Positions 554 to 24,533 of a DNA stretch of 25,915 nt are shown here, piece by piece. Position numbers and translations under genes: made by a program. Location of the stretch: positions 1-25,915 of the IMG/VR virus record IMGVR_UViG_3300033145_001773. One strand, given 5' to 3'. Under the pieces are notes generated by a model. It saw only the letters and a program-made list of their open reading frames with translations, searched no databases and was not told where the DNA came from. Position 1 is the first letter of the stretch. Each line of letters begins with the position of its first letter. This DNA is from a virus.

Positions 554-1000
554 TCAAAAGTTAAAAATATGTGCCATTTTAGTACTTAATTTTTGTTTTA
601 ACAATAAGTCGAAGTTGTGCATGAAATCTGCCAATGTCATATTCTCTGCTCCCGGTATTTTTTCATCAATTGAGCGGTGTTCCAGTAATTTCTTCCTTCT
701 TAAAAAATATTTTTGTTTGCATTTTATAAAACTTTTTAATTTCCACGTATAATAGGTTGAAAACCTTCCCTTCTTTGCATCAAATCCCTTAATCGCCTTT
801 AATAATATTATCGATTTACATGCGTCTATAACTTCTTCCTGTATTAATCCCGGAAAATAATCCATTCGATAATATTTCATGACCGTGTAAATTAATCCTG
901 ATGATTCTTTTATCAATTGAGCAATTAAATTATCATCATGCGTCACGTCATATTCTAACACAAGAGGTGTTAGTTTATCTACACTCTTTTTTCTACCCAT
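554..1000 (-). CDS. Sigma-70 region 2-like protein without region 4
   Basis: This is a 148-residue basic helical protein if it starts at 1000, where an AGGCAGG sits about 9 bases upstream; an ATG at 1027 would add nine residues. The middle of the protein resembles sigma-70 family region 2. A helical stretch with LIxEEVIDACKSIILLKAIK is followed by GFDAKKGRFSTYYTWKLKSF, which matches the FDPxKGxxFSTYAxWWI pattern of regions 2.3-2.4 (core binding and -10 recognition). Ordinary phage sigma-like proteins also carry a helix-turn-helix region 4. Here only about 45 residues follow, and they do not look like one. It overlaps the upstream gene by 8 bases. It may be an alternative or appropriated sigma, or a region-2-only regulator. 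Family assignment rests on motif reading only. Confidence 0.6.
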   Translation of the reverse strand: MGRKKSVDKLTPLVLEYDVTHDDNLIAQLIKESSGLIYTVMKYYRMDYFPGLIQEEVIDACKSIILLKAIKGFDAKKGRFSTYYTWKLKSFIKCKQKYFLRRKKLLEHRSIDEKIPGAENMTLADFMHNFDLLLKQKLSTKMAHIFNF

Positions 1001-1418
1001 TATGCTGAACCTGCCTTTCCTTTTCATTTCCTCCGATATGTTTTTTGCATGTATTGATATCGGTTTCCGTGACCTTCACATATCCCTCGATTATATTTCT
1101 AGCCATACGTAAATCCCTTACCGCATAAGATGCTTCCTTATCTGCCACAGTACTTACAAATTTTTTCTCTATATCATTAGGCACAAATTTAAGTTTCAAA
1201 TCCATATATTTACTTACTTCTGTGTTTTTTTTGATTGCTTCGATTTTTAAATAAATTGGCACAAGGTAAGTATAGCAACCTGATAACCTATCGAGTGTTT
1301 TGTGATAATATTCTAAATTAAGAGTATCGAACTCACGCAACTCCCTACCTATTATATCTATCATCTCAAATGTTGGTTTCGCTTTTACTAAAATCTCTTT
1401 TAATTTTTCATTATCCAT
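993..1418 (-). CDS. Small helical protein of unknown function
   Basis: I place the start at 1418 because AGGGGG lies about 7 bases upstream; an upstream in-frame start at 1466 would overlap the preceding gene by more than 50 bases. The 141-residue product is predicted to be almost entirely helical and charged, with two long helices around LEYYHKTLDRLSGCYTYL and RMARNIIEGYVKVTETDI, and a C-terminal CKKHIGG. Size, helicity and position in a replication operon recall phage recombination mediator proteins of the UvsY type, but I see no diagnostic motif, so this is only a guess. It overlaps the upstream QueE-like gene by 8 bases and the downstream sigma-like gene by 8 bases, so the three are probably translated in a coupled way. 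Confidence 0.55.
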   Translation of the reverse strand: MDNEKLKEILVKAKPTFEMIDIIGRELREFDTLNLEYYHKTLDRLSGCYTYLVPIYLKIEAIKKNTEVSKYMDLKLKFVPNDIEKKFVSTVADKEASYAVRDLRMARNIIEGYVKVTETDINTCKKHIGGNEKERQVQHNG

Positions 1419-2031
1419 CTTGTGCCCCCTTTTTAGTTCCGAATACTTCAACATGCAAACATGCACTATAAAATTTATTTGCAGTTACACAATAATTCCA
1501 AACACTCTTTCTCACTATCTTATCTATTTCTTTATGCGTTATTAGCGACATCACGACTGTTGAATATTTTAACATTTTTTTCCCGATACCTATTAGGTCG
1601 GTTATTACCTTAATGTCCCAATTAAATGTCCAGCCTCCTCGCTCCAAGATATTATATACCCTCTTTGCGGTTTCCTTATCTTCAGGTGTAATACATACAT
1701 AATCAAATGTACCATCTATGTTTTGAGCAACCCAGTCCCAATCAGTCATCAATTCCCCGCTTGTCTCTAAATGAAACATGATGCCACTAGGTAATTCATA
1801 TTTTAGTTCACGTATAGCTTCTAATTGCAATAACGGTTCATCTCCCATAAACACGATTGTGTTACCCACAGGGTTGAGTCCCTTAGCAAATGATTTTAAA
1901 TTTATATCTGTATTAATTTCAGTGTTACACTTATTATTACGACTAGCCAATTTTATAAACGTTACCGGACATCCTTGATATCTTCCCTCTCCTTGTATAC
2001 TATTAAATACTTCATTAATTTTGAGTTTCAT
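1411..2031 (-). CDS. QueE-like protein lacking the radical SAM cysteine motif
   Basis: The 206-residue product follows the layout of 7-carboxy-7-deazaguanine synthase (QueE). It has NEVFNSIQGEG at 6-16, then GCPVTFIKLAS, then MGDEPLLQ at 62-69 (normally GGEPLLQ), HLETSG at 87-92 and a CITPE segment near 113 (normally SPK). In true QueE the segment after FIRL is a CxxxCxxC motif holding the [4Fe-4S] cluster. Here it reads SRNNKCNTE: the first cysteine is Arg31, the second is Cys35 and the third position is Glu38. Without the cluster it should not perform radical SAM chemistry, so it may be a pseudoenzyme that binds SAM, substrate or partner. The frame is intact for its full length, so it appears maintained. 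Its start overlaps the -1 frame extension of the upstream gene by ATGA. Confidence 0.72.
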   Translation of the reverse strand: MKLKINEVFNSIQGEGRYQGCPVTFIKLASRNNKCNTEINTDINLKSFAKGLNPVGNTIVFMGDEPLLQLEAIRELKYELPSGIMFHLETSGELMTDWDWVAQNIDGTFDYVCITPEDKETAKRVYNILERGGWTFNWDIKVITDLIGIGKKMLKYSTVVMSLITHKEIDKIVRKSVWNYCVTANKFYSACLHVEVFGTKKGAQDG

Positions 2032-19454: not shown

Positions 19455-20645
19455 CTAATAAACTATAATATCGTTTTTTTGGAACAATTTAACCATATCT
19501 TCTCTAGCCCATTGTAACTCTATAGAAGTTAAATGAGATGTTTTAATAATACACGGTGAAAAACTCTTTTTCCCTGCATAATAATTAACTTGTTTATTTA
19601 CTATCTGAATATCATATCTTTGAATATTTTCATAAATATCACACCCTGGGAAAGGGTGGAAAATATAAAGACTTACCTTATCAGGTTGAGTTTCTAATAC
19701 CCATTTTTTAGTAGCCCTTAATGTATCTACTGTTTCACCTGGTAACCCAATCATCAAGAAAACTTTAGTTTTTAAACCTAATTTCTTGCAAATACTTATA
19801 GCCTTTGTGTTTGTATTCACACTATTTGACTTATTTATAGTATTTAAAATTTTCTGACTACCACTTTCTATTCCAAAACTTAAATATTGACAGCCTGAAT
19901 CTAAAGCATATTTTATAACTGTATCATCTACATAATCACTACGTGCTTGTGACCTCCAAGCAATTTTTACTTTTTGTAATTCCTTACATAATTGTATAAA
20001 ACGTGATTTATTCATTAAAATATTATCATCATAAAATATAAACATTTTTGGATTATATTTTTCTTTTAACACTTCAATTTCTTTTCTTAAATTAACTGTA
20101 TTTCTCAATCTTATCTTATCTATAATTTTGGCACAAAAGGCACACTTATACGGACAACCTCTCGAAGTCATAATGGGTATACGTTCATGAAAATTAAATT
20201 TATTTTCCACTAATGAAAAATCTATTGTTGAAATATCATCTAAATTAAAATTAGAATGCCCCTGTATGATTCCCTTTTCCCGTTTTAAAATCTTTTCCAT
20301 TACCAAGTCCACTATACCCTCTATTTCCCTCATAACTACTAAGTCAAACCCGTAATTTTGAATCTTCTCGGGCCGTATGGATGGTAAGGGTCCACCAGCT
20401 ATTTTAAATATTCCTGGAAACCTTTTACCTAATTCTTGAAACTGTTCTTCATGAATACTACTACCTCCGAAGCCAAGTACATCCTCTTTTTCAAAAGAAT
20501 ATCTTAAGCCTTCTTCCCAACTTAAAATTTTTATTAGCTTAAAAAATGGCTTTAGCGCAGCGGCAACATATAATAATCCCAATGGGGGAACGAAATTATC
20601 TTCATCTAAAAAACTATTTTTGGGAAGTATTAAAATTAATTGCAT
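19455..20645 (-). CDS. B12-binding-type radical SAM protein
   Basis: The 396-residue protein shows the class layout. An N-terminal cobalamin-domain-like region (PPLGLLYVAAAL, GGSSIHEEQFQEL, KIAGGPLPSIRPEKI) precedes a radical SAM barrel with SRGCPYKCAFC (C164, C168, C171, all present). FIFYDDNILMNKSRF, YLSFGIESGSQKILN and FLMIGLPGETVDTL are also characteristic. A DxHxxG cobalamin-binding histidine motif is not visible, so the N-terminal domain may not bind B12 in the usual way. Relatives methylate or rearrange unactivated carbons, often in sugar or lipid pathways. Within this cassette a glycan or lipid-precursor substrate is an inference. Confidence 0.82.
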   Translation of the reverse strand: MQLILILPKNSFLDEDNFVPPLGLLYVAAALKPFFKLIKILSWEEGLRYSFEKEDVLGFGGSSIHEEQFQELGKRFPGIFKIAGGPLPSIRPEKIQNYGFDLVVMREIEGIVDLVMEKILKREKGIIQGHSNFNLDDISTIDFSLVENKFNFHERIPIMTSRGCPYKCAFCAKIIDKIRLRNTVNLRKEIEVLKEKYNPKMFIFYDDNILMNKSRFIQLCKELQKVKIAWRSQARSDYVDDTVIKYALDSGCQYLSFGIESGSQKILNTINKSNSVNTNTKAISICKKLGLKTKVFLMIGLPGETVDTLRATKKWVLETQPDKVSLYIFHPFPGCDIYENIQRYDIQIVNKQVNYYAGKKSFSPCIIKTSHLTSIELQWAREDMVKLFQKNDIIVY

Positions 20646-23426: not shown

Positions 23427-24533
23427 TTATTTATCAAATCCTAAATATCTAGCAAACTCATCACAATTTTTCAAATATTTTTTCTTCTCTGCTAATAATA
23501 CTTCTGGACTAATAAGTTCATTCGTTACTGTATCAGGTAATCCTAGAGGTTTTTTGTCCAATTTTAATTTATCACAATAATAAGCAATTCGATTACATTT
23601 TAAGCATTTGCCTTCCCACCTATCTTTGCCGCAACAATAACAACTATAAATATACTTATAAAACTTTGGAAATAAGTGATATAAATCATATATTAAACTG
23701 CATTTACTCGCATATCCCCCAAAGCCCTTCATCATCGGTCCACTACCTATATATAGTTGATTAATAAGATGTGAACTAAAGGAATAATCCCAAATAGTAG
23801 TAGAGCGAAAGGGAGATAAATCTTCTTGCTCTTGACCTGAAAATATTATTGAAATATTATGTCTTTTTACAATAGGTAGAGAAAGAAAGTAAAATAATGG
23901 ACCCATTAAGAAATTATTAAAATCTACTTCGGTCATTATCGATACATTTTCCTCTCGAAATGGTACATAGACTCTCTCATATTCTATATTATTTTCCTTG
24001 CAAACTCCATCTAAAAGCTGTTGTTTTATTTGGTTTTGCCCAGTACGATTATTCATATAGTTCTTACCTTCAAAAACAATTAATATTGGTTTTAATGAAA
24101 TAAAACTTGCTAAAGTATAATTACTTTCAACTCCTCCACCGTAAAGAACAGCAATTTTAGATGGTTTTTGAGAGTCGTACAATATCTCATGATTCGTGAT
24201 TATATCAGCATCTAATTTTAAATTAAAAACACCCAAATGTTTATTATATTTTTGAACCTTATTTATATACTTCTCCCAAAATAATTTTGTATCGTTATGA
24301 AGTTTTAATTTTGTTTTTAATATAATATTATTAGACACTATTCTTGCAAGCACGGGTAATGTAAATGATAAGAACATATTAGCCAATACATCACTAGATA
24401 GAAAATCTACGTTATCATCATATTTTATTACAATTTCCGTAACATTAAACAGCTTTTCTAAGCCTGAAAATTTAAAGAATATCTCCTTGCCATTAATTCC
24501 AGCATCTATTAGACAAATTTCCTTAGCTTCCAC
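23427..24533 (-). CDS. PP-loop ATPase-like protein with QueC-like zinc cluster
   Basis: The 368-residue protein has a central PP-loop IAVLYGGGVESNYTLA (127-142), where the usual motif is SGGxDS. A C-terminal cysteine cluster, CYCCGKDRWEGKCLKCNRIA (C298, C300, C301, C310, C313) plus C320, closely resembles the zinc site and CxxCxxR of QueC-type enzymes. QueC uses ATP to form a nitrile on 7-deazaguanine. The N-terminal 120 residues are extra and unrecognised. Given the glycan neighbours, ATP-dependent amide or amine transfer to a sugar is at least as likely as deazaguanine chemistry. The start at 24533 lies three bases after the preceding stop. Confidence 0.65.
   Translation of the reverse strand: MEAKEICLIDAGINGKEIFFKFSGLEKLFNVTEIVIKYDDNVDFLSSDVLANMFLSFTLPVLARIVSNNIILKTKLKLHNDTKLFWEKYINKVQKYNKHLGVFNLKLDADIITNHEILYDSQKPSKIAVLYGGGVESNYTLASFISLKPILIVFEGKNYMNNRTGQNQIKQQLLDGVCKENNIEYERVYVPFREENVSIMTEVDFNNFLMGPLFYFLSLPIVKRHNISIIFSGQEQEDLSPFRSTTIWDYSFSSHLINQLYIGSGPMMKGFGGYASKCSLIYDLYHLFPKFYKYIYSCYCCGKDRWEGKCLKCNRIAYYCDKLKLDKKPLGLPDTVTNELISPEVLLAEKKKYLKNCDEFARYLGFDK

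Follow-up and report, generated by a model that had tools for sequence, protein, structure and literature searches.

The 7-deazaguanine gene sets of phages yield DNA bases that shield them from restriction, and hosts have been proposed to provide intermediates for phages with partial pathways (PMC6884629). The residues that contact the substrate in QueE are known from work on the E. coli enzyme, which assigned such roles to Q13, E15, and R27 (PMC11142719). In that study, C38A and R27A abolished queuosine (Q) synthesis, and Q was still made by the single mutants C31A, C35A, T40A, and G94A (PMC11142719). The catalytically dead R27A protein still blocked septation, and filamentation was lost in all three of C31A, C35A, and C38A (PMC11142719). 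The pathway intermediate 7-carboxy-7-deazaguanine (CDG) is also conjugated to protein by Cap9 of type IV CBASS (PMC13279940).

We analyzed a 25.9-kb IMG/VR viral contig, here called the window over its whole length, and found a gene for a QueE-derived pseudoenzyme at 1411..2031 on the minus strand. The original prediction had given the same coordinates without a strand and had called the product QueE-like, and both hold. The ORF is intact, begins with ATG, and encodes 206 amino acids. Profile searches matched the protein to phrog_2076 (E 6.5e-10) and to the NCBIfam QueE model TIGR04349 (E 1.9e-8), the latter at 34 bits against a curated cut-off of 300; all NCBIfam QueE matches (E 1.9e-8 and weaker) fell far under the curated cut-offs. 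The Pfam Radical_SAM match scored below the gathering threshold and begins at residue 56, beyond the cysteine region. The SIQGEG, EPLLQ, and ETSG segments are present as predicted, as is GDEP where relatives have GGEP. The protein has cysteines at C21, C35, C181, and C191. No second, intact queE was found within the 25.9-kb window.

An AlphaFold2 model built from a 48-row alignment had a mean pLDDT of 91.5, a value driven by the alignment. Low pLDDT was confined to residues 31–40 (block mean 56) and to the C-terminal end. Low confidence in the loop is not diagnostic, since a model of the canonical sister protein described below, made by the same procedure, is low there too. The six best PDB matches of the model were all QueE crystal structure chains (E 4e-7 to 1e-4; among them 6nhl, 4njg, 5th5, and 5tgs). 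The protein is thus predicted to retain the QueE partial-barrel fold.

The closest relative is a canonical QueE encoded on contig L002 (IMGVR_UViG_3300033147_000359), with 62% identity over the full length. Searches of viral and genome contigs for close relatives of the gene, of its neighbour, and of the window primase matched this sister contig only, and a DNA-level search of the phage collection found no match. The two contigs share gene order, with two downstream genes (a 139-aa and a sigma-like gene) and upstream tail and small genes, and the window gene is a syntenic orthologue of the canonical queE of the sister. The sister protein has the motifs CTRKCDFCDTKYH, GGEP, ETNG, SPK, MPLT, and RLHVEVFG.

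The codon alignment of the two genes resolved how the cluster cysteines were lost. The first, TGT in the sister, is CGT (Arg) in the window gene; in the former Fe-S loop (residues 31–35, 1927..1941, minus strand), R31 thus replaces the first Cys and the middle Cys, C35, is kept. Between codons 36 and 37 (1921..1926, minus strand), 21 nt were cleanly deleted in frame, which removed FCDTKYH, the third Cys included. The predicted loss of Fe-S cysteines is therefore confirmed, with only C35 left of three. The R-x3-C-x2-E spelling is a correct reading of the present sequence, but Glu at C+3 did not arise by substitution of a Cys; replacement of the third Cys by Glu was rejected in view of the deletion. 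GDEP (residues 63–66, 1834..1845, minus strand) replaces the SAM-binding GGEP, and the position of its altered residue, G64, is Gly in 47/47 other rows of the alignment. SPK became TPE, and further conserved positions were altered (R27K, T62M, N91S, K117E, P162S, and R191C). On the substrate side, Q13 and E15 (E. coli numbering) are retained and R27 is Lys. The N-terminal segment, residues 1–26 with SIQGEGRYQG (1954..2031, minus strand), is conserved and differs from the sister by one amino acid and six synonymous changes.

These losses stand out among viral QueEs. In an alignment of the window protein with 47 other viral QueEs, R27, C31, C38, D39, T62, G64, N91, and K117 were invariant in the 47, and 8/8 were changed or deleted in the window protein. 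It deviated at 9 of 28 conserved columns of the 48 rows, where the next worst protein deviated at 4 and the mean of the others was 0.5. Two collection scans yielded at least about 130 distinct QueE contigs among the matches listed, some contigs appearing in both; in the second, some search patterns required cysteines. None of the roughly 130 contigs among the matches listed had the same loss, an absence that is not proof, and tblastn in the phage collection found no second cysteine-less relative. C31 and C35 are kept in the aligned surveyed QueEs, and a displaced third cysteine is present wherever C38 has no match. About 15 loci with apparent third-Cys gaps were accordingly rejected as other losses, as they carry a spaced variant (CNLMC...WRCDT and similar). 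The spaced motif together with an Fe-S loop insertion marks a group of viral QueEs (L067, L072–L075, L077, L079, and L091–L093).

Radical-SAM catalysis, the conversion of CPH4 to CDG, is very unlikely for the window protein alone, judging from its sequence, because the equivalents of C31, C38, and T40 are jointly absent, R27 is Lys, and the GGEP glycine, N91, and K117 are gone. The proposed repurposing as a SAM or substrate binder, regulation of host QueE, and an anti-defence activity are hypotheses. SAM-site motifs are among the losses (GGEP to GDEP, SPK to TPE). SAM binding appears less likely than pterin binding, because these motifs are lost and the substrate-side Q13 and E15 are kept.

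The end of queE overlaps the ATG of the next gene (ATGGATAA, 1411..1418, minus strand) and carries a GGGGG ribosome-binding-like run; the sister junction at the same place is TAATG. Translational coupling of the two genes is likely from the junction sequence. The start context of the window queE itself appears weaker than the AGGAG of the sister. The next gene is function-unassigned (993..1418, minus strand) and orthologous to 6566–6985 of L002, with about 77% identity. It is followed by a sigma-factor-like gene (554..1000, minus strand; phrog_351, E 2.1e-6), orthologous to 6985–7431 of L002 and the last before synteny ends. Synteny breaks at about position 560, about 0.9 kb past queE, at a non-homologous primase: the start of a PrimPol-type primase lies at the contig end (2..538, minus strand; PF09250, E 3.3e-6) and has no match in the sister. 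With a PrimPol-type primase in the window and a DnaG-like one in the sister, the replication modules differ, and the exchange lies about 0.9 kb from queE.

Beyond the break, the sister side carries genes for FolE2 (PF02649, E 1e-84), a QueC-like protein (PF06508, score just above the cut-off), and a candidate DpdA-like protein, the last with weak resemblance and matching only PHROGs of unknown function; the sister also has QueD (PF01242, E 1e-33). In other relatives, queE lies near genes for QueD, FolE, QueC, and a TGT-domain protein. The suggested link to DNA modification is supported for the ancestor, by the FolE2, QueD, QueC-like, and candidate DpdA-like genes that the sister has besides queE. 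QueC and TGT profiles found nothing in the 25.9 kb, and no other cassette gene was found there; the contig stops 0.5 kb past the sigma-like gene, before the corresponding region.

Several observations concern other genes of these phages. Candidate DpdA-like transglycosylases that Pfam misses are encoded at L013 4233–4979 (+) and L005 8913–9671 (+); the two proteins are related, match only phrog_19058 and phrog_20335 (unknown function), and occur in sets without a TGT-domain protein. A phosphoribosyltransferase gene recurs near phage queE and folE (L004 6883, L005 6801, and L013 175). In the window, 23427–24533 (minus strand) encodes a 368-aa protein that looks QueC-like by eye, with a PP-loop-like GGGVES and a cysteine-rich C-terminal segment; it had no profile match, the QueC profile included, and its neighbours are methyltransferases, a glycosyltransferase, and a pyruvyl transferase in one cluster. 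To the same phage sugar/methyl modification cluster belongs a B12-binding-type radical SAM protein (19455–20645, minus strand) with a complete CxxxCxxC and a resemblance to the PhpK, HpnJ, and BchE groups.

The most economical reading is that this is an orphaned queE whose radical-SAM activity was lost in the window lineage under relaxed selection, and we give it slightly better than an even chance. The ancestor would have had its own queE within a 7-deazaguanine DNA-modification set. We infer that CDG made by the phage itself has become dispensable, with the partner genes lost in a module exchange beside queE or the intermediate coming from the host. A premature stop would harm downstream expression, since the end of queE holds the ribosome-binding site of the next gene and overlaps its start, and this is probably what has held the frame open. 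Translation and folding of the protein probably continue, without QueE chemistry.

The loss goes well past what chance would give. Six outgroups share 52 invariant columns; 16 of these changed in the window gene only and 1 in the sister only (binomial p 0.0003). The N-terminal part was largely spared: 1 of its 13 outgroup-invariant positions was altered, whereas elsewhere 16 of 39 were (Fisher p 0.04). In a codon model, dN/dS was 0.146 on the window branch against a background of 0.034 (2 x delta lnL about 6.0, nominal p about 0.014), a rise that speaks for relaxed selection; the estimates are rough because synonymous sites are near saturation; for the same reason pairwise dN/dS was uninformative for timing. 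The sister branch was also raised (0.115) once left free, and dN/dS = 1 across the whole window branch was rejected (2 x delta lnL about 7). Neutral drift reaching these conserved-site changes would be expected to bring about 4 to 6 stop codons, and none was observed; such changes together with zero stops have a joint probability no higher than 0.002 (0.018 when conservative changes are left out). There is no frameshift, and the indels are multiples of three.

Fully neutral decay is therefore disfavoured by the sequence comparisons, as there are no stops, dN/dS is below 1, and the N-terminal SIQGEG region is intact, which makes a pseudoenzyme retained for a new, non-catalytic role a real rival. 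QueE is a homodimer. Such a protein might pair with host QueE or bind pterin via the SIQGEG strand, lowering or redirecting CDG. We hold this to be possible but doubtful. The full-length open frame despite many conserved-site changes, a window-branch dN/dS below 1, the kept substrate-side residues Q13 and E15 in the largely spared N-terminal part, and the confidently predicted QueE-like fold all speak for it, and the QueC scaffold in Qat and type IV CBASS is a precedent for repurposing in this pathway (PMC13329287). Against it, the derived form is not conserved, with no second cysteine-less relative among the roughly 130 contigs listed or by tblastn, R191C and P162S changed too, and the mean AlphaFold confidence reflects the alignment. 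The absent stops are also explicable by translational coupling, since the queE end overlaps the start of the next gene and holds the ribosome-binding-like run, so that a premature stop may be counter-selected for the downstream genes. Coupling could weaken the case for retained function without removing it: it may account for the missing stops but not for the N-terminal amino-acid conservation.

More specifically, and as speculation, the protein could act as a dominant-negative phage QueE that pairs with host QueE or holds the substrate, starving the host of CDG and blunting a CDG-dependent defence such as the Cap9 of type IV CBASS. This assumes that the phage no longer modifies its own DNA, and we consider it very improbable. 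A moonlighting role in cell division or host takeover, like the catalysis-independent action of E. coli QueE, finds encouragement in the septation block by R27A, but filamentation was lost in C31A, C35A, and C38A (PMC11142719) and the window protein has no counterpart of C31 or C38, which leaves this role a long shot. Equally hard to credit is a still-active QueE whose cluster is ligated otherwise or with a partner protein. C21, C35, C181, and C191 are available, and C31A, C35A, T40A, and G94A singly make Q, but C38A alone is dead in E. coli (PMC11142719), and here the third Cys, CDT, R27, the GGEP glycine, N91, and K117 were lost together. An assembly or sequencing artefact is highly unlikely: this is one metagenome contig with an allele found in no second copy, and the homologues all retain the cysteines, which the original prediction took as the sign of a local sequence error, but such an error is argued against and was rejected on about 16 dispersed, in-frame changes at conserved sites, the many synonymous differences, the unbroken ORF, and the orthology of the neighbouring genes, too, to those of the sister.

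If the orphaned gene is merely decaying, it gives a clear view of how a phage DNA-modification gene loses its chemistry one residue at a time and keeps its fold and reading frame. If it is retained, it would be a QueE pseudoenzyme and a candidate for phage interference with the CDG supply for queuosine synthesis and type IV CBASS. No QueE pseudoenzyme was found in the literature searched.

The nearest known system is phage QueE (phrog_2076, e.g., of phage 9g), with which the window gene shares homology, length, fold, and the SIQGEG, EP, and ETxG segments, as well as synteny with a canonical phage queE. It differs in lacking two of the three cluster cysteines, in having GDEP for GGEP, and in the replacement of R27, N91, and K117; the queE of phage 9g complements an E. 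coli mutant (PMC6884629), whereas the window gene is predicted not to. E. coli QueE, as a moonlighting cell-division regulator (PMC11142719), is a precedent for a function separable from catalysis, but by alanine scan that function needs C31, C35, and C38, and the window protein is without two of them. QatC and Cap9, repurposed members of the QueC family (PMC13329287, PMC13279940), are a precedent for a preQ0-pathway scaffold changing its role. Unlike the window protein, they belong to another enzyme family, keep their ATP-dependent chemistry, and act in host defence.
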